Notes under the pieces: generated by a model
What the model was told of the DNA's origin: nothing
Database searches by the model: none
Seen by the model: the letters and a program-made list of their open reading frames with translations, nothing else
Part shown: one piece after another, positions 5,851 to 15,510 of the stretch
How the letters are laid out: the number at the start of each line of letters is the position of its first letter
Position numbering within the stretch: the first letter of the stretch is position 1
Program-made: the position numbers and the translations under genes
Assembly (NCBI GenBank): GCA_020056225.1
Contig: JAGVIE010000026.1
Span: 1-33,690, forward strand
Direction of reading: 5' to 3'
Source: Bacteroidota bacterium
GTDB taxonomy: Bacteria > Bacteroidota > Ignavibacteria > UBA10030 > SZUA-254
DNA: 33,690 nt

Positions 5851-5901
5851 TTGCTAGTATCACTTTATAATATTTCATGATATACGTCGAAGTGAGGTTC
5901 A

Positions 5902-6084
5902 CTATCTGATCTTTTCGACAATAAACAGAAAATCAACTTTTGCAGTTGCCCCCATCCACAAAAAAGTCGGCTTTACATTCGGAATAATTGAAACTATATC
6001 GCCTTCCATATTATTCAGAAATTGCTCTAACTTAGCTTGGTCTTCATTCATTTTAATTGGGAACCGATGGACTCGATATTTCAT
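5902..6084 (-). CDS. Small hypothetical protein (60 aa)
   Basis: The product is not recognised. It is a short, charged, soluble-looking protein (MKYRVHRFPIK...) with an alpha/beta pattern and a C-terminal hydrophobic strand (KVDFLFIVEKIR). The N-terminal YRVHRFPI resembles the start of small DUF4177-like proteins, but this is weak. Its start overlaps the 3' end of the membrane-protein gene upstream by 32 bp, so translational coupling is likely and the pair probably acts as one unit. It is the last gene of the minus-strand run that begins near 11.6 kb. Confidence 0.55.
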   Translation of the reverse strand: MKYRVHRFPIKMNEDQAKLEQFLNNMEGDIVSIIPNVKPTFLWMGATAKVDFLFIVEKIR

Positions 6085-6487
6085 TTTGCGTCTCCTTATA
6101 CTTTTTATAAATTAATTCATATATACCCAAGGATATTAATCCTGCTATAACAGTTGCAACTATATCCCTCCAATCACAAGTATTCCTTCCAGGCAATATA
6201 GCTTGGACCAACTCATAAATGATCAATCCAATTATAATAATAAGTATGAACCATCTCCCCTGTTTATGCTTAGGATTTACACCTGCAAGATCGAAAAATA
6301 TTACCGCCATAGTCCCTGTAAAGTTTCCGATAGTGTCGGCAATCCAAAAATCAAAAATGTTATTTGAATAAATATACGGTCTGTATATCTTTCTGCCTAT
6401 TTCGGTTATTATAAACATCGAAACAAATATTAAAAAGAGAATTATTCTCTTTTCATCAACCCTGAATATTCTGTTTTTATCTATCAT
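6053..6487 (-). CDS. Small integral membrane protein, VanZ-like in layout
   Basis: The 144-residue protein has about four hydrophobic segments (about 16-29, 48-68, 81-96 and 107-125). Between the last two lies LPGRNTCDWRDIVATVIAGLI, and the Asp-x-x-Asp followed by a glycine-bearing helix resembles the VanZ-like family. The resemblance is only by eye and the substrate is unknown. It overlaps the 60-residue gene downstream by 32 bp. The spacer before its start carries an attC-like half-site (6500-6520) and a solitary RAYT-type hairpin (6534-6602), so it may be the first gene of a cassette. Confidence 0.6.
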   Translation of the reverse strand: MIDKNRIFRVDEKRIILFLIFVSMFIITEIGRKIYRPYIYSNNIFDFWIADTIGNFTGTMAVIFFDLAGVNPKHKQGRWFILIIIIGLIIYELVQAILPGRNTCDWRDIVATVIAGLISLGIYELIYKKYKETQNEISSPSVPN

Positions 6488-6499
6488 ATTTCTTTAACT

Positions 6500-6520
6500 A
6501 CATAACGTGCTGGAGCTAAG
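6500..6520 (-). other. Candidate attC-type half-site (R'/L' boxes)
   Basis: On the minus strand the segment reads CTTAGCTCC, five bases, then GTTATGT, the order L'-spacer-R' of an integron attC right half. The same 9-mer at the same five-base spacing recurs at 10938-10958. The adjoining left half is not visible because a RAYT hairpin occupies the place. GTTATGT deviates from the GTTRRRY consensus at one position. Confidence 0.4.
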
Positions 6521-6533
6521 CTGACATGCAGAT

Positions 6534-6602
6534 GTGCGACTCACTTTTCACGAAGTGATTACTTTGTAACAGGTTAACTGCAAGGTTGGAAGTGTATCGC
6601 AC
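6534..6602 (-). repeat. Solitary RAYT-type (REP-like) hairpin, expanded
   Basis: The ends GTGCGACTCACTT and AAGTGTATCGCAC pair with two mismatches. The minus-strand inner sequence contains CCAACCTTGCAG-TAACCTG, nearly identical to the loop of the hairpin at 12478-12524 beside RAYT 1, followed by about 22 extra bases. It is in the opposite orientation to the four hairpins at the RAYT genes, and it lies 8 bp downstream of the stop of the gene at 6611. Confidence 0.85.
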
Positions 6603-6610
6603 ATTAAACC

Positions 6611-7165
6611 TTACTCCGTTCTTTTCAATACAACTTTTGTATAAACCTCAAATTCCTTATCGGGCGGAGCAAGTTCGAATGTTTCCGAAAACTCGTTATC
6701 GCCAAGTATCTGATAAGTTTCTTTCGCACGCCATCCGGCTTTTATATTCTCTATCGACTCGGAAATAAAAACAATTCTTTTACCATCGGCTGATATACTA
6801 TCGAGCTTATATTGGTTCACAAATCCTTCGATGTGAAATTGCCTCAGGATAAAAGTATTTCTCAATTTATCGAAACTTATATACCCGACATCTTCATGAA
6901 CCTCACCTTCGGGATTATTTTCCGAAGGAGGGTAGACAGATTTATTGTGAACCTCGATAAATTTATTGTTGAAAATATATTGATATTTACGCTCATAGTT
7001 ACCTTCTCCCGGCTCTCCACCGCCCTTGCCTGTCCAGCTACCGATAATGAACTTGAAAGGTTTCCAAATGCTGTCTTGCTTCGTAGTCTGACCGAATGTT
7101 AGAATAGGAAAAAGCAGAATTGCTGCAATAAATGTATTTCTGATGAACAAATATTTTGATGTCAT
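6611..7165 (-). CDS. Secreted lipocalin/nitrobindin-like beta-barrel protein, function unknown
   Basis: I start this at the ATG at 7165, which gives a clean signal peptide (MTSKYLFIRNTFIAAILLF to LTFGQ); an in-frame ATG at 7213 would add 16 residues before it. The mature part is all-beta in pattern and opens with WKPFKFIIGSWTGKGGGEPG. The GxWxGxG signature is seen at the start of calycin-like barrels such as nitrobindin and DUF1579-type proteins. Later strands follow (VGYISFDKLRN, FILRQFHIEGFVNQYKL, RAKETYQI). No catalytic residues are evident and ligand binding is inference. A second protein of similar design is encoded at 7827-8336. Confidence 0.7.
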   Translation of the reverse strand: MTSKYLFIRNTFIAAILLFPILTFGQTTKQDSIWKPFKFIIGSWTGKGGGEPGEGNYERKYQYIFNNKFIEVHNKSVYPPSENNPEGEVHEDVGYISFDKLRNTFILRQFHIEGFVNQYKLDSISADGKRIVFISESIENIKAGWRAKETYQILGDNEFSETFELAPPDKEFEVYTKVVLKRTE

Positions 7166-7248
7166 AATAACCTCTATTCCTGAGTTGACATTTGAAAGTT
7201 CAAAAAGCCTCATAGACTAACGGTCGCAGTGAAACCATAGTTCGGTGA

Positions 7249-7626
7249 CTAATTACCTTTCTCCAAAGTCTCTTTAAGTTTACTAAAAGGTATTAATATT
7301 ACTCTTTCAACAAACACATACTCACCCTTCGGTCCCACATGCACTAATCCAAGAATATGCGTAGTCTCCGGATTAACCCCCCGCCGTTTATATTTCTGTG
7401 AGATTAGGGCGGAATACTGGCACCCGTGCCCACCACACATTGAATCATAGAACACAATACTTGGTTTGCCTAACTCGCCTCTCTTTCCAAATTCCTTTTG
7501 CGCCTTGATAATTTCAGGGCAGTCCAGAAAAGCTTGGATGAGCTCCTTTTCGCTCATTCTCTCCTGAGCATTTGCAAATGAGGCTATCAGCATTGCCATC
7601 ATAGTAAACGCAATCACTATTCTCAT
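7249..7626 (-). CDS. Small secreted hypothetical protein with cysteines
   Basis: The 125-residue product has a good signal peptide (MRIVIAFTMMAMLIASFANAQ). The mature domain of about 104 residues holds three cysteines (FLDCPEI, DSMCGGHGCQYS) and a Gly-His-rich loop, followed by predicted beta strands (ILGLVHVGP, YVFVERVILIPF). The CGGHGC motif could bind metal or form a disulfide; I cannot name the family. AGGAG precedes the ATG. The next gene on the strand begins 83 bp downstream of its stop. Confidence 0.65.
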   Translation of the reverse strand: MRIVIAFTMMAMLIASFANAQERMSEKELIQAFLDCPEIIKAQKEFGKRGELGKPSIVFYDSMCGGHGCQYSALISQKYKRRGVNPETTHILGLVHVGPKGEYVFVERVILIPFSKLKETLEKGN

Positions 7627-7690
7627 CTCCTGTTTATCTCCTAATGGTTCTAACTATAAATTATGGTTCAATATAAAACTATTTCATATA

Positions 7691-7821
7691 AGAGATTTCT
7701 GAAAAATAAATAAGTGTCATGGTGAGCCTGTCGAACCATGACTTCTTGACTCAAAACCACGCTTCGACAAGCTCAGCGTGACTGTTATTTTGTTGATTAA
7801 AATAATTTTTCAGAAGTCTCT
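7691..7821. mobile_element. 131-bp MITE-like element carrying two opposed REP-type hairpins
   Basis: Terminal inverted repeats of 17 bp, AGAGATTTCTGAAAAAT (7691-7707) and the complement of AGAGACTTCTGAAAAAT (7805-7821), match at 16 positions. Inside are two palindromes: GTCATGGT...ACCATGAC (7716-7742) and CACGCT...AGCGTG (7758-7782). Read on opposite strands they share a core TGAGC-TGTCGAA. No transposase is present and no clear target duplication was found. The element lies about 5 bp past the stop of the gene at 7827. Confidence 0.75.
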
Positions 7822-7826
7822 AAAAA

Positions 7827-8336
7827 CTATTTCCTTATTAGCTTCACACGTGCGAAGGGTTGACTCTTCTCTTCATTATCCATCTGCCATTGCCAGGTAT
7901 CAGTATCTCTGGTGTACGTGAATGTCGTGTAGAAGAGCCCGCCATCACTACCCTTGAATAAAAACGCAATCTTATCACCGCTCCGTTTTGCATGACCGAT
8001 TGCCTGAGCCGAGAGACCACCGCCGCCTGTTACATCGAGCCAAAGACAAGCGTACCGGCTCGACGGTTGATCCCAGCAGATGAAGACAATCGCTTCATAC
8101 TCCGCTTCACCGTTAGCATTCTTTTCGCGAGAGGTTTCGTGAAGTTGCAGGTACTGATGACCCAGCACCCATTCTGCGATAATATCGTGTGTCGTCTCTT
8201 TTCCATCTATGGTGCCCTGAAGAACCCACTTCCCGATCATATGATCGAGCAAGGAATCCTGAAATGTCGTTTGCTGTGCCGACATGGGTAGTGAAACCAG
8301 AACAACTAATAAGATGATTTTTATAAAAGTTATCAT
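7827..8336 (-). CDS. Secreted DUF1579-like beta-barrel protein
   Basis: The 169-residue protein has a signal peptide (MITFIKIILLVVLVSLPMSA) and then DSLLDHMIGKWVLQGTIDGK, the opening typical of DUF1579/lipocalin-like barrels. Alternating beta strands continue to the C-terminus (ARVKLIRK). HDIIAEWVLGHQYLQLHE and CLWLDVTGGGG also fit that family. The ligand is unknown. It resembles the product of the gene at 6611 in design rather than in sequence. The spacer upstream (8337-8540) contains the best attC-like site of the region, and the MITE-like element begins just after its stop. Confidence 0.7.
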   Translation of the reverse strand: MITFIKIILLVVLVSLPMSAQQTTFQDSLLDHMIGKWVLQGTIDGKETTHDIIAEWVLGHQYLQLHETSREKNANGEAEYEAIVFICWDQPSSRYACLWLDVTGGGGLSAQAIGHAKRSGDKIAFLFKGSDGGLFYTTFTYTRDTDTWQWQMDNEEKSQPFARVKLIRK

Positions 8337-8365
8337 TGAGTGCTTTCTTCAATAAATGTGATGGT

Positions 8366-8470
8366 GCCCTAACACTCTGGCTAACCTGCCGCGCCAATGA
8401 CTTTCCTGCGTAGCACCGCTGCGTTGCCCGCGGCCTCATTGGAGCTGTCAAAGCTCCAAACCTTGTTAAA
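8366..8470 (-). other. Candidate integron attC recombination site
   Basis: On the minus strand it starts TTTAACAAGG (R''-like) and ends GGTTAGCC-AGAGT-GTTAGGGC (L'-spacer-R'-like). In between, GGAGCT/AGCTCC (7-nt spacing or less) and CAATGA/TCATTG form nested stems around a GC-rich core. Length of 105 bp, placement directly after a gene and before the next start, and orientation match attC. The overall plan recalls Vibrio VCR repeats. The GTTRRRY consensus is imperfect and outer-arm pairing is weak. Confidence 0.45.
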
Positions 8471-8540
8471 TATATTGCGCAGCTATTAGGCTCCATTGCC
8501 GTATTGGCAATGTTGGATCTTTGACGGCCATTTGCTTGCA

Positions 8541-9356
8541 TCACTCGTCGATACTTGGTTCTGAACCAAGCTGCTGCTCGAGCACCTTGACAATCAGGGC
8601 CTCAGTCTCCGGATGGCGGTCCATGGCCGCCAGAAAGCCTGGAGAAAGATCGAAGGTTGCGCCAGCGTACATCCCCCCGTATTTCTGTTTGAGCAAGTCG
8701 TGATAGTTCATATGGACCTTGAGACCATATGAACACATCGCACCAAGCTCGATCTCGTCCAGTTCGAGTGCTTCCCTAACCTGATCGGGAAACGTCACCG
8801 GCTCCGCTTTATCCATCAAGAAAGAACGCCGAAACCAATAATCTTTCAGCAGCATTCTTGCAAGGATCAGGGCTTGAGGTCGAACGAGCAAGCGATTCGA
8901 ATGATCGGTTCGAGCTTCTTCTGGTCTTGTCGTTCGATATTCCGCTGCCATCTCTAGAAGCTTTTGTTCCCGATGGAGAACTGTACGAATCATTGCATAG
9001 GTCTTGCCCTCGTTCCTGATCGACTCAAGTACAGATCTTGCCTTACCCAGGTCCTCCACCGCTTCCTCATGACGGCCAACGGTGGCCAGGGCAAGTCCCC
9101 TGTTGAGCAGGCAACTCGCCTGATCATTTTCTGTTCCTTCAATCCCCTCGAAAATGGTCGCCGCTTTCCCCCATTGGTCGATTGCTCGAGGCACATTTCC
9201 GTTGTGAATGGCCGCAAACCCAGCATCTACAGCGTCGGCCGCTACGGCGTAAGGTTGTTTTGATATGGTCGGTTGCCTTTTTTTACCGTCGCTGTTGCAG
9301 GCACTAAAGGTGATTGATCCTGCGAGGATGACAATGTGGGCCACCCTCGCCAGCAC
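8541..9356 (-). CDS. TPR-containing lipoprotein of foreign composition
   Basis: I choose the GTG at 9356, which gives a lipoprotein signal (MLARVAHIVILAGSITFSAC) with an Arg before the hydrophobic stretch. The frame stays open upstream to an ATG at 9491, across a run of ten G/C pairs (9401-9410). The mature protein contains at least two TPR-like helical hairpins (AAIHNGNVPRAIDQWGKAA; ASCLLNRGLALATVGRHEEAV), so a scaffold or binding role is likely. The C-terminal half, with charged helices and HRE and DEIELG stretches, is not recognised. Codons are visibly GC-richer than in the neighbours, which suggests transfer. It is flanked on both sides by attC-like spacers and so may be one cassette. Confidence 0.65.
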   Translation of the reverse strand: MLARVAHIVILAGSITFSACNSDGKKRQPTISKQPYAVAADAVDAGFAAIHNGNVPRAIDQWGKAATIFEGIEGTENDQASCLLNRGLALATVGRHEEAVEDLGKARSVLESIRNEGKTYAMIRTVLHREQKLLEMAAEYRTTRPEEARTDHSNRLLVRPQALILARMLLKDYWFRRSFLMDKAEPVTFPDQVREALELDEIELGAMCSYGLKVHMNYHDLLKQKYGGMYAGATFDLSPGFLAAMDRHPETEALIVKVLEQQLGSEPSIDE

Positions 9357-9491
9357 CCATAAACGTAACGGCTCCGAGTCCGATTTAGAATATGTCCACT
9401 GGGGGGGGGGAAATTCTGCATATTTCTTGAGCATTGTTTGATTCCTTTCAACAAACGCGATCGAGTTATGAGAAATTTTTTCTTCAATCAT

Positions 9492-9740
9492 GTTTGCTTA
9501 ACGGCGTTGCCGATAAGCGGCTTCCCTGATTTACCCGCCAATCTTTTATTGTGGGACAAGAAAACCGCAAATAATACAACACCAATTGTTATTAAAATAT
9601 TCATTTAACAGCATTACTTTATACAACTAACACTAAACGGAAGAAAAAAATAATAATTACACAAATGCCAAATGCGAAACCGGCATCCACTTGATTGGCT
9701 GGTTATGTAAAGATTATATAAATGTATTCATAATATTGAT
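9492..9740 (-). other. Structured spacer with candidate attC-like ends
   Basis: This 249-bp gene-free stretch, read on the minus strand, has CATAACCAGCCAATCAAG (9707 downward) after the gene at 9741. It ends in GCTTATCGGCA-ACGCC-GTTAAGC (9496-9502), 4 bp before the next possible ATG. GTTAAGC is an exact GTTRRRY match. A second internal GTTAGTT occurs near 9625-9632. The distance between outer boxes (212 bp) is long for one attC, so it could be two degenerate sites or a site with an insertion. Confidence 0.35.
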
Positions 9741-10346
9741 TTAATTCATCATCAAATTAATATCTACCTCCGATTTTTTTAGAAGGCTTTTTGTCAAATC
9801 CACTATTGCTTGGGCAATCAATTTTTCTGCATTTTGGCCAGCTTCAGTTTGTCCTTTTTTCGATATTTCACCTAACTCTTCCCACGTGGGTTTAAAGGTA
9901 CTTTGTGCCGACATTAATAAATTTTGTCTGGCAACAGGATCCATTTCTTTAATTGCTAGAACTACTGTAAGATATTCATTGCTTTTCTGAAGATTCAACT
10001 TTATTACATTAGGGATATTCTTTGAGATGAAATTTTGCAAATCACTCTCAGTAAAACATTGATAATCCATCTGACCAATACTTTCTTTTACATAAATACT
10101 TTGTTGTTCTTTAATTATTCCAATAATTCGGTCAGGAGATATTATTACTTTTTTATGGATAGAATCAGAAATTGTTGATGAAGTTGTCTTTTCATCTGCG
10201 GTTTGTTGAGCAATAGTATATTCGGATTTTGTTTCAAGTTTTAAAAGCTTTTGATATAGCGTAAAATACGCACTTACTCCAGCAAGTATTAAACCCACGA
10301 TAATTCCAGTTATCAATTGTGAATAATTAATTTTAGTATTTGACAT
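9741..10346 (-). CDS. Membrane-anchored hypothetical protein
   Basis: The 201-residue product is not recognised. One N-terminal transmembrane segment (residues 9-29, LITGIIVGLILAGVSAYFTLY) is followed by a Ser/Thr-rich linker and a helical domain (residues 60-195) rich in Lys, Glu and Gln, suggesting a signal-anchored protein with an exported or cytosolic helical bundle. It lacks cysteine apart from one in YQCFTE. It lies 24 bp downstream of the gene at 10371 and is probably co-expressed with it. The two may work as a membrane pair. Composition is AT-rich, unlike the TPR gene downstream. Confidence 0.6.
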   Translation of the reverse strand: MSNTKINYSQLITGIIVGLILAGVSAYFTLYQKLLKLETKSEYTIAQQTADEKTTSSTISDSIHKKVIISPDRIIGIIKEQQSIYVKESIGQMDYQCFTESDLQNFISKNIPNVIKLNLQKSNEYLTVVLAIKEMDPVARQNLLMSAQSTFKPTWEELGEISKKGQTEAGQNAEKLIAQAIVDLTKSLLKKSEVDINLMMN

Positions 10347-10370
10347 ATTTTTACCTCTTGATAAATATAA

Positions 10371-10895
10371 TCAGTAATAACGTATAGAAATTGGATTAGA
10401 TGATACACTAAAATATGGTAATAAATTATTGAACTCGAATCCATCTGAAAGAAGATCACGACCACAGGAAATTAAAATAACTTGTATTGTGTTAGAACTA
10501 TCTTTTGATGATAAATATGATAAGTCAATAGTAAAATATAATTCTCCATCATCTCTTATAATTGGGCGCGGATAGACTCTCCAATTACCGAGAGGAACAG
10601 TTCTACGTGCAAGAGGATATATATCGAGATTTCTTTCTTTTAAATAAAATACAGCAGATTTTTTAGATTCTCTTAAAAGAACACTTCCATTTATACTTAT
10701 TGATTTACCAGATATTTTATTTATAGATGATTCATTAAGTGTAATGTCTAATAGCTCGGTTTGATTTGACAAAATAGTTTTAATGTCGCCAACACCAAAA
10801 AAAATGAGAGCAGAAAATATTGACGAAACAATTCCAAGTATAATACTTGTATTTTGGATATAATTCCACGTAGTATTTATTTTTTCTCTAGCCAT
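10371..10895 (-). CDS. Membrane-anchored hypothetical protein with beta-rich domain
   Basis: The 174-residue product is not recognised. A hydrophobic segment near residues 16-36 (SIILGIVSSIFSALIFFGVG) anchors it, and the remainder is mostly predicted beta strand (SISINGSVLL, SAVFYLKE, LYFTIDLSYL, TIQVILISCG), consistent with one extracytoplasmic immunoglobulin-like or sandwich domain. It precedes the helical membrane protein at 9741 by 24 bp. The spacer upstream of its start carries an attC-like half-site, and the pair 10895-9741 would then form a two-gene cassette. Confidence 0.6.
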   Translation of the reverse strand: MAREKINTTWNYIQNTSIILGIVSSIFSALIFFGVGDIKTILSNQTELLDITLNESSINKISGKSISINGSVLLRESKKSAVFYLKERNLDIYPLARRTVPLGNWRVYPRPIIRDDGELYFTIDLSYLSSKDSSNTIQVILISCGRDLLSDGFEFNNLLPYFSVSSNPISIRYY

Positions 10896-10937
10896 TAGTA
10901 AGTTTATATTTTTGAGTTATCAAAATATATTACTCCA

Positions 10938-11119
10938 GTATAACAGAGCGGAGCTAAGTTGCGGAGTAGAATATCTCGGTTTGTACTGCTCGCACCCGTG
11001 TCTCTGAGCCTATGATTTTTTCTTTTCACGATCTACTGCACCTGAGCAATTACAATTCGCCGACGCTCATTCCGTCAACTTGAGCCACGGTTCAGGTCGG
11101 CTAGATTTACTGGTTATAG
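10938..11119 (-). other. Candidate attC-like spacer with long imperfect palindromes
   Basis: On the minus strand the stretch opens with CTATAACCAGTAAATCTAG, overlapping the stop of the gene at 11114, and closes with CTTAGCTCC, five bases, then GTTATAC (10938-10958). The opening resembles that of the spacer at 9707 (ATAACCAG--AATC-AG). The closing repeats the half-site at 6500-6520. The interior has several short inverted repeats. At 182 bp it is longer than a typical attC, and GTTATAC deviates from consensus. Confidence 0.35.
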
Positions 11120-11623
11120 GGTTTTGCTTATTGCCTGTTTTATTTTTTCTTCGAGCTGTTTTGTTATGTCTTTTGGAATCGGGATATCTATTTCAATTAA
11201 ATTCTCTTCTTCAATTTTTCCTTTGATAATTTGTCTTTTTGAAATTTTAATCCGCGGTGTTTGTTTTCTATGTTCGCTTGATAAGCCCTTAATGATAGTG
11301 GTGATAAGGTCAATAACTGATTTTGCGAGTGTTGCCGATGCGGTCGCTAAAGCAAAGTATACAATTATCTCTGGGCCACTTTCATGCTGTTCAAGAACAA
11401 ATTTGTTTCCGTCTTTCTCGATTAATGCGTCGCCTTCATGTTTCACCGGACCACAGGGCTCTATAAATCTATTAATCATTCGCCATGTTTCTGACAAACA
11501 ACCAGAACAACAGCAGCCAACATCCAAAGGGGAAAGTTTTATTGAAATATAATTTTCGTATATTTTTGGAGTTTTCAATAAAGCAATTGCACGATCCATG
11601 CTCCTTTGTAATTTTTCTTCCAT
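11114..11623 (-). CDS. Hypothetical protein with CCCSGC cysteine cluster
   Basis: The 169-residue product is not recognised. Residues 37-42 are CCCSGC, with one more Cys in EPCGPV (near residue 56), a possible metal or cluster site. A hydrophobic helix follows (EIIVYFALATASATLAKSVIDLI, about 84-106). The rest is a charged strand-helix domain with a proline-rich step (EIDIPIPKDI). The helix followed by a basic beta segment loosely recalls effector-associated small components of conflict systems, but I would not assign it on that. A strong AAAGGAG precedes the ATG. It is the most upstream gene of the candidate cassette run. Confidence 0.6.
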   Translation of the reverse strand: MEEKLQRSMDRAIALLKTPKIYENYISIKLSPLDVGCCCSGCLSETWRMINRFIEPCGPVKHEGDALIEKDGNKFVLEQHESGPEIIVYFALATASATLAKSVIDLITTIIKGLSSEHRKQTPRIKISKRQIIKGKIEEENLIEIDIPIPKDITKQLEEKIKQAISKTL

Positions 11624-11818
11624 GTTTTCTCCTTTATTTTATTTTTTCCCCCTTAACTATTAATCATCCCGCCATCTTACCTGATAACATTCCGGTGGAG
11701 AGAATGCTATACAACACCTTCCTTAATAAAACATTTTATATATGGAAAACTCAAAAGGTGGCAGAAAATACAGTAGTAAAATACTATTCTTATTTTATAA
11801 AATCAACTTGTTGTTGAA
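11624..11818. other. Gene-free AT-rich spacer
   Basis: This stretch separates the gene at 11114 from the first RAYT unit. It contains the ribosome binding site of the minus-strand gene, and on the minus strand a GTTATC box at 11698-11693 preceded by CTCTCCACC and a five-base gap, a weak match to the other attC-like half-sites. I see no coding frame or RNA gene in the remainder. Confidence 0.4.
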
Positions 11819-11865
11819 GTGCGACTCACGTCCAACCTTGAGTCTTACCTGAACGTGAGTCGCAC
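11819..11865 (-). repeat. RAYT-associated 47-nt hairpin, subfamily A
   Basis: GTGCGACTCACGT and ACGTGAGTCGCAC form a perfect 13-bp stem around a 21-nt loop containing CCAACCTTGAGTCTTACCTG. It lies 6 bp past the stop of RAYT 1 and is in the same orientation as the copy at 12478-12524. The compensating change at the inner stem pair (CGT/ACG against CTT/AAG) shows the stem is maintained. Confidence 0.93.
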
Positions 11866-11871
11866 ATCTGT

Positions 11872-12450
11872 TCAATCAAAATAATACTTCTGCAAATCTT
11901 TATCAATTTTCTTTGGCGAAACATATTCCATAACAAATGTTTCATAATCTTTAGAAGATGGAAAGTTCTCTTTAATAAATTCTCGATCTACCAATATATC
12001 ATCCCTCAAACCAATCCAATCTGGATAGTTGGAATACTGCCATTTCTCGATATCAGTAACCAATCCTGCGTCCAATGGATTACGATGGATGTATCGACAT
12101 AAATGTATTAAGTGGCTGAACTTTTCAATCAATATTGCTTTGAAGGGAGCTTCGAACAACGTACCTGTTCTGTTGTACTTCTGATTGAAAGCTTTACTGT
12201 ATCCATTAAATATCGTTTGTACCATTCCTCCTACGCTCTTATCACCATCCTGCCTCAACAAGAAATGATAATGATTCGGCATCAAGCAGAAAGCTATAAC
12301 ACTCACCTTCGTACTTATAAAATATTTTCTGAGTTTTCTTAAAAGAAACTGGTAGTTTTCATCGGAGTGGAAAATCTTTACCCGGTTGCATCCACGGTTG
12401 TATATGTGATAATACTCGCCTTGAGTAAATTGTATGTTTCTTCTTGCCAT
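11872..12450 (-). CDS. REP-associated tyrosine transposase (RAYT 1, Y1/IS200-like)
   Basis: The 192-residue protein belongs to the Y1_Tnp / TnpA-REP family of single-strand HUH transposases. It opens with YYHIYNRGCNR, has the HUH metal motif in LMPNHYHFLLRQ, a Tyr-bearing helix (GYSKAFNQKYNRTGTLFE) that probably holds the nucleophile, and the family signature LCRYIHRNPLDAGL. All core motifs are intact and the length is normal, so it may be active. It is bounded by two hairpins (11819-11865 and 12478-12524), giving a 706-bp unit with the plan of an IS200/IS605 or REPtron element. It is collinear without gaps with RAYT 2 and, by eye, more than half identical. Confidence 0.95.
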   Translation of the reverse strand: MARRNIQFTQGEYYHIYNRGCNRVKIFHSDENYQFLLRKLRKYFISTKVSVIAFCLMPNHYHFLLRQDGDKSVGGMVQTIFNGYSKAFNQKYNRTGTLFEAPFKAILIEKFSHLIHLCRYIHRNPLDAGLVTDIEKWQYSNYPDWIGLRDDILVDREFIKENFPSSKDYETFVMEYVSPKKIDKDLQKYYFD

Positions 12451-12477
12451 ACTATCAACCTATGTGTGAATCATCAA

Positions 12478-12524
12478 GTGCGACTCACTTCCAACCTTGC
12501 AGCTAACCTGAAAGTGAGTCGCAC
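12478..12524 (-). repeat. RAYT-associated 47-nt hairpin, subfamily A
   Basis: GTGCGACTCACTT and AAGTGAGTCGCAC form a perfect 13-bp stem. The loop contains CCAACCTTGCAGCTAACCTG, close to the partner at 11819 and to the solitary copy at 6534. It lies 27 bp upstream of the RAYT 1 start and 9 bp past the stop of the ABC permease. Confidence 0.93.
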
Positions 12525-12533
12525 ATTTCTTGT

Positions 12534-14809: not shown

Positions 14810-14856
14810 GTGCGACTCACCTCGTGTGGAGTGTAAGCACTGAAGGTGAGTCGCAC
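14810..14856 (-). repeat. RAYT-associated 47-nt hairpin, subfamily B
   Basis: GTGCGACTCACCT and AGGTGAGTCGCAC form a perfect 13-bp stem. The loop reads CGTGTGGAGTGTAAGCACTGA and differs from subfamily A. It lies 12 bp past the stop of RAYT 2 and is nearly identical (one loop base) to the copy at 15464. Confidence 0.93.
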
Positions 14857-14868
14857 TTATCCAATCGA

Positions 14869-15447
14869 TTATTCACAATAATATTTTTTCATTTCTCGTT
14901 CAATATGTTTAGGTGAAACATAATCAAGAACGAACTCTTTATATTCTTCTGGACTTGCATAATGCTCCTGGACAAAATCCAGATCAACAAGAATATCCTC
15001 TCTCTTGCCGATCCATTCCATATAATTCGAAAATTTCCAATCTTCAATCTTTGCTACCAATCCTGCATCAAGCGGATTTCTATGGATGTATCTACATAAG
15101 TGAAGCAAATGGCTATCCTTTTTAATTTCCAGTGATTTAAACGGACCTTCGAATAATGTCCCACTCCGCTTATACATGGCATTGAATGCCTTCGTGTAGA
15201 CGTTAAATAACCATTGTACCAACGATTCAACACTTTTTGAGCTACCCTGCCGCAATAAGAAATGATAGTGATTCGGCATTAAGCAATAGGAAATCACGGC
15301 AATATCATACTCAATTACTTTTTCTTTTAGCTTTCTCAAAAGATAGAAATAGTTTTCCTCAGATTGAAAAATATCTTCCCGATTACATCCGCGGTTGTAA
15401 ATATGATAATAACCGTTTTTTTCAAATTGTACGTTTCTTCGTGCCAT
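14869..15447 (-). CDS. REP-associated tyrosine transposase (RAYT 2, Y1/IS200-like)
   Basis: The 192-residue protein is collinear with RAYT 1. It keeps YYHIYNRGCNR, the HUH motif in LMPNHYHFLLRQ, the Tyr-bearing helix VYTKAFNAMYKRSGTLFE and LCRYIHRNPLDAGL. It is intact and likely functional in cutting and joining the adjoining hairpins as single-stranded DNA, an inference from the family. The unit from hairpin to hairpin (14810-15510) is 701 bp. Differences from RAYT 1 are concentrated in residues 30-55 and 68-85, which together with the different loop sequences suggests that each enzyme recognises its own hairpin subfamily. Confidence 0.95.
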   Translation of the reverse strand: MARRNVQFEKNGYYHIYNRGCNREDIFQSEENYFYLLRKLKEKVIEYDIAVISYCLMPNHYHFLLRQGSSKSVESLVQWLFNVYTKAFNAMYKRSGTLFEGPFKSLEIKKDSHLLHLCRYIHRNPLDAGLVAKIEDWKFSNYMEWIGKREDILVDLDFVQEHYASPEEYKEFVLDYVSPKHIEREMKKYYCE

Positions 15448-15463: not shown

Positions 15464-15510
15464 GTGCGACTCACCTCGTGTGGAGTGTCAGCACTGAAGG
15501 TGAGTCGCAC
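15464..15510 (-). repeat. RAYT-associated 47-nt hairpin, subfamily B
   Basis: A perfect 13-bp stem GTGCGACTCACCT/AGGTGAGTCGCAC encloses the loop CGTGTGGAGTGTCAGCACTGA. It lies 16 bp upstream of the RAYT 2 start and 15 bp past the stop of the tricorn-type protease gene. Confidence 0.93.

Follow-up and report, generated by a model that had tools for sequence, protein, structure and literature searches.

A solitary hairpin, probably a decayed copy of a RAYT-associated family, in the genome of an uncultured Bacteroidota bacterium

The window, the whole stretch of 33,690 bp analysed here, is contig C32 of the 3.5-Mb, 62-contig genome (G000) of an uncultured bacterium. Between two small genes it contains a hairpin of 69 bases, which together with its outer bases (6532-6604) is probably decayed and non-autonomous, a copy of the hairpin that HuH/Y1 single-strand transposases of the RAYT1 lineage would recognise; the copy was likely made in trans from RAYT1. 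Comparative sequence analysis established the hairpin family, its co-location with RAYT genes, the covariation in its stem, its spread across genera and the kinship of the solitary copy to the hairpin at 12478. The features concerned are listed in Table 1.

Table 1. Location of the hairpins, RAYT genes and surrounding features in the window
Feature	Position	Strand	Description
Solitary hairpin	6532-6604	-	With conserved outer A...T; centre TCCA...TGAA reads on minus strand
First arm of solitary hairpin	6534-6546		GTGCGACTCACTT
Second arm of solitary hairpin	6590-6602		AAGTGTATCGCAC; two decayed bases (TA for AG)
Insert in solitary hairpin	6548-6569	-	22 nt, TTACAAAGTAATCACTTCGTGA; two tandem 11-nt mini-hairpins (TTAC-AAA-GTAA, TCAC-TTC-GTGA)
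attC-like surroundings	6497-6625		Putative; TAAC-5 nt-GGAGCTAAG before hairpin, CTTACTCC after
Downstream gene	6053-6487	-	No family match
Gene ending at solitary hairpin	6611-7213	-	Stop codon 8 nt from hairpin; weak THAP4-like beta-barrel match, below cut-off
Block	5886-7821		Hairpin and three genes; absent at orthologous place in G007 and G013
Hairpin 3' of RAYT1	11819-11865	+	6 nt behind stop codon; oriented as 12478
RAYT1	11872-12450	-	192 aa; IS200-like HuH/Y1 transposase (NHYH ... YIHRNP); Pfam Y1_Tnp above cut-off
Hairpin 5' of RAYT1	12478-12524	+	Nearest kin of solitary copy
Hairpin 3' of RAYT2	14810-14856	+	
RAYT2	14869-15447	-	192 aa; 62% identical to RAYT1
Hairpin 5' of RAYT2	15464-15510	+	

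The solitary hairpin

The arms of the solitary hairpin are 13 nt long and differ at two positions (CT versus TA, arm positions 7-8). Folded as DNA, 6534-6602 had z scores of -3.9 and -4.3 on the two strands, and none of 200 shuffles was equally stable. The stem 11-mer GTGCGACTCAC has nine exact matches in the window, all of them inside the five hairpins, and 15 matches when up to two mismatches are allowed, versus 4.25 expected. The comparison of the fold with shuffles and the counts of stem matches rule out a chance inverted repeat at this position.

Compared on the opposite strand, 6534-6602 was 91% identical to 12478-12510 over 33 nt. When the insert is removed and the remainder is reverse complemented, 22 of the 23 inner bases are those of the 12478 copy, which has the closest centre among all copies compared and lies in the same contig; the two hairpins also have the T-A pair 12-36 in common. 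The initial annotation, which described a relative of the 12478 hairpin on the opposite strand with about 22 added bases and two stem mismatches, was therefore borne out, the insert being exactly 22 nt. Only 17 of 300,000 base shuffles of this 22-mer formed both mini-hairpins. A second copy of the insert, allowing up to three mismatches, was not found in the window.

RAYT genes and their flanking hairpins

RAYT1 and RAYT2 scored 43.6 and 47.3 bits with Y1_Tnp, against a cut-off of 23. The NCBIfam model REP_Tyr_transpos (NF047646) was not reached (71.5 and 67.1 bits versus an equivalog cut-off of 80); two other RAYTs of the same genome exceed it. A PDB sequence search with RAYT1 as query gave no match, and neither did an Rfam scan of the window. 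A hairpin of 47 nt is present on both sides of each of the two genes, and all four hairpins have the family stem. They are arranged as direct, not inverted, copies: within the RAYT1 pair the identity was 19/23 in direct versus 9/23 in inverted orientation, and within the RAYT2 pair 22/23 versus 9/23.

In other genomes, several RAYTs that are 54-60% identical have the GACTCAC stem, and more distant RAYTs have other stems. The RAYTs that share the stem were found in Bacteroidota and Kryptoniota MAGs. On the RAYT tree, in which one row (G053_L157) looks mistranslated and has a very long branch, the stem label is clustered, with 3 changes versus 5.6 in shuffles (3 of 500 shuffles were as low). Counter-cases exist: at 55-59% identity to RAYT1, some RAYTs (L149, L151, L152) have a different stem.

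The hairpin family

The genome-wide check for more copies that was proposed in the initial annotation yielded 11 copies in a full-motif pattern search and, using a covariance model, 31 two-strand matches, corresponding to about 15 copies. The designation "solitary", which stems from the same annotation, thus holds in the window but not genome-wide, where about ten further copies lie away from RAYT1 and RAYT2.

A typical copy has a length of 47 nt and consists of a near-invariant GTGCGACTCAC/GTGAGTCGCAC stem and a fast-changing centre of 21 nt (15 nt inside the innermost pairs; longer in the solitary copy), with a constant outer A...T. In the pattern-search set, bases 1-11 and 37-47 are invariant partly as a result of the search pattern itself. 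Outside this pattern, stem pair 12-36 is Watson-Crick in 26/26 copies and occurs as all four pair types, i.e. it covaries; T-A is found throughout at pair 13-35, and a mismatch at pair 14-34 in 25 of the 26. In 48 of 50 copies (from G000, G001, G007, G009 and G013) there is an A at -2 and a T at +2 of the stem, with a usually mismatched pair in between. Based on the conserved A and T, the solitary copy runs from 6532 to 6604, and the family unit has about 51 nt, with conserved irregularities. The two bases ahead of the stem are nearly always A followed by A, T or C, and a GTAG/CGTC foot is absent. Irregularities of this kind are read by single-strand transposases in the hairpins of IS200 and REPs.

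In the same 50 copies the foot mismatch (A.A or T.T) and the centre mismatch (C.A or T.G) were not coupled in their polarity, which looks as if centres flip or swap within fixed stems. Larger copies were also found, with a total length of 54 nt on another contig of this genome (C36), 68 nt in G001 (C122), 50-70 nt in G020 and G030 and 73-77 nt in genus g4. In the latter genus (G003, G011, G014) the same stem encloses AT-rich centres of about 50 nt which, judged by eye, are mostly unrelated between copies, and one hairpin pair flanks a RAYT that is 60% identical to RAYT1. In G007 and G013 several copies (L056, L244, L253, L255 and L256) are wholly or partly nested in a second palindrome, AAACCTCCGGTATCTC ... 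GAGATACCGGAGGTTT; nesting in an outer palindrome scored high for a few G007 and G013 copies, not for 6534.

Mobility and age of the copies

Comparison of individual copies supports a family that moves, while old copies stay and diverge. Identical 25-nt centres are present in two genera, on contig C50 of G000 and in G007 (C2:22158), at non-orthologous loci with unrelated flanks. The C50 hairpin, whose inner pair is G-C as in 11819, matches each of the RAYT1 hairpins at 21/23 bases, and its site is without hairpin in G007 and G013. G013 also lacks hairpins at the place of RAYT1 itself, where both G000 and G007 have them. With near matches for both 12478 (the 6534 copy) and 11819 (the C50 copy), the young-looking solitary copies track both RAYT1 hairpins; for the RAYT2 hairpins no close solitary relative was found among the copies compared.

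In G007 the place of RAYT1 (L064:12028-14143, versus window 11819-12524) retains both hairpins and lacks a RAYT, and the space between the hairpins is taken by two unrelated genes; the centre polarity of these hairpins is opposite and the foot-base polarity is kept.

Five pairs of hairpins were found at orthologous places (G007/G013 twice, G000/G007 twice and G000/G001 once), which shows that some of the family's copies are old and have been passed on by vertical descent. Within these pairs the centres diverge by about 10-33% and the stems by 0-19%. Orthology of the genes beside the L008 and L054 hairpins was rejected, as their similarity is that of a shared C-terminal sorting domain only. The G007 genome, which is 99% complete in about 10 contigs, has kept about 15 hairpin copies and gave no match at all in a RAYT-family search, so persistence of the hairpins does not need the transposase. 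The initial view of the solitary hairpin as a decayed RAYT-associated copy from a mobile, non-autonomous family can be retained, with the restriction that, as the five orthologous pairs of other copies indicate, part of the family is old.

Origin of the solitary copy

In the explanation that we favour, a RAYT would bind the folded hairpin in single-stranded DNA, with its 13-bp stem and conserved mismatches near the loop and the foot, cut beside it and join it to a new single-stranded site. Landings just behind stop codons would be the copies that are tolerated. The 6534 copy would afterwards have lost two stem bases, and its centre would have gained 22 nt, probably via hairpin-templated replication slippage. 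That RAYTs perform the binding, cutting and joining, and that RAYT1 of this genome was the source, is what we infer; in E. coli and other systems TnpA-REP cuts and joins REP hairpins in vitro (PMC8266576), and for the subclass of RAYT1 no biochemical data were found. In view of the near-identical centres to the RAYT1 hairpins in other genera (21/23 in G009, 21/23 in G007 and 22/23 in G013), the source of 6534 may also lie outside this genome.

Counting against this explanation, neither a target duplication nor an empty site was found for 6534, since the entire block that contains it is absent from both syntenic relatives. G007 and G013 are the two nearest relatives that keep the genes neighbouring the block, and in both the region upstream of rsgA (window 5885) is joined directly to window 7822, so that about 1.9 kb are missing as a unit. 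The outgroups G038, G058 and G031 share rsgA, but not the adjacent genes that polarising the block would require.

The hairpin could have arrived within the block, by horizontal transfer or a cassette-style insertion, already located behind the 6611-7213 gene and never moved by RAYT1 here. Apart from the absence of the block, this agrees with the different gene content of all three genomes (G000, G007 and G013) between rsgA and the ABC transporter operon (window 5886-12530), a stretch which looks like an insertion hotspot, and with the close copy in G009, which has similar surroundings and is next to a fragment of the 7827-8336 gene. We nevertheless consider such an arrival unlikely: the closest centre lies in the same contig, and in other genomes the homologues of the 6611-7213 gene are followed neither by such a hairpin nor by a recognisable copy of the 6487-6611 spacer.

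Two other features were observed in this part of the window. At 7687-7840 there is another palindromic repeat, with GTCATGGTGAGCCTGTCGAACCATGAC and CACGCTTCGACAAGCTCAGCGTGAC inside outer inverted arms, which is probably a second REP-like family. A run of about ten G (9402-9411), close to where the minus-strand ORF 8541-9491 starts, is possibly a phase-variable tract or an assembly slip.

The hairpins, 6534 among them, may also have been kept as 3'-end structures, in transcription termination or in protection of mRNA 3' ends, which would be compatible with a RAYT-made copy. Among 19 RAYT-free copies at most 15 nt from a long ORF, 18 are at the 3' end and one is at the 5' end (p = 8e-5), although selection against insertion near 5' ends yields the same bias. 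Orthologous copies persist across genera, the hairpins of G007 persist with no RAYT match in that genome, pair 11-37 is compensated in two copies, and in the five orthologous pairs the stems differ less than the centres (15/130 versus 24/105, p = 0.02); some orthologous sites, however, are empty. The candidate function as intrinsic terminators was rejected for the window hairpins, which were not listed by a terminator scan that allows loops of 3-8 only, and which are not followed by a T-run. As the account of 6534, we judge retention for such a function to be rather improbable, and a decayed copy made in trans from RAYT1 remains our preferred reading.

According to the initial annotation, the hairpin interrupts an attC-like site and would thus be younger than the cassette. 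The resemblance is partial: TAAC-GTGCT-GGAGCTAAG and CTTACTCC mimic R''-L'' and L' with an extra base, L boxes are present, and the former motif recurs at 10941-10958, with its core once on another contig. Yet the motif has only 3 matches genome-wide (by our own estimate about 0.5 are expected), the R' box is a poor match, shuffled sequences fold as well as the outer stem with the hairpin left out (z 0.3), the flank pairing of 6534 is not among the high scorers, and no integron integrase was found above cut-off in the genome (TIGR02249 below cut-off only). A genuine integron attC site with the hairpin as its apical part is most improbable, and the dating after the cassette, which relied on a motif of nine bases and a fold that was not significant, was abandoned.

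Comparison with known systems

REPs are among the commonest repeats of bacteria, and to our knowledge their transposition has not been watched in cells. The family described here includes both old copies that are positional orthologues and young ones with matching centres, and it offers copy-free sites and, in G007, a RAYT-free genome with hairpins. In this uncultured, non-proteobacterial lineage the question of selfish copy or useful 3' structure thereby becomes testable.

Like classical REPs and their RAYTs (Nunvar et al. 2010, PMC2817692; PMC3733652), the family consists of short extragenic palindromes that are located on both sides of rayt genes and scattered elsewhere, and its stem type appears broadly to track the RAYT. 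The clustering of the stem label on the RAYT tree does not imply a single origin, and G007 has copies and no RAYT. In contrast to classical REPs (PMC2817692; PMC3733652), the family has no GTAG/CGTC foot, a centre of 21 nt instead of a loop of 2-5 nt, and about 15 copies instead of more than 100, and its flanking hairpins are direct, whereas those described by Nunvar et al. (PMC2817692) are inverted.

With IS200/IS605 elements the family shares a HuH/Y1 transposase flanked by a pair of subterminal hairpins that point the same way, as well as conserved irregularities in the stem. Unlike these elements, the two transposases are diverged (62% identity), no tnpB was noticed beside RAYT1 or RAYT2, and solitary hairpins are common.

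TnpA-REP/RAYT subclass 2.6 (Quentin et al. 2018, PMC6006769; RAYT group 5 of Bertels et al.) is similar in that its members are mostly from Bacteroidetes, have about 180-190 aa and contain WQ and YIH-NP motifs, and in that atypical secondary structures flank the gene and have copies elsewhere in the genome. Of its three motifs only WQ fits exactly, as RAYT1 has NHYH instead of NH[LIV]H and YIHRNP instead of YIH[QN]NP (PMC6006769); RAYT1 is therefore compared with the subclass by motifs and description and is not filed as a member. Tentatively, and as a somewhat doubtful proposal, the hairpins may form a distinct RAYT-dependent kind that lacks a guide tetranucleotide and combines an invariant stem with a free centre of genus-set length (21 nt here, about 50 nt in genus g4). 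They would spread between genera, settle at stop codons and be kept by hosts as 3'-end structures after loss of the transposase. The closest assignment is that of a REP/RAYT variant, nearest in description to the poorly known "atypical" Bacteroidetes class, subclass 2.6.
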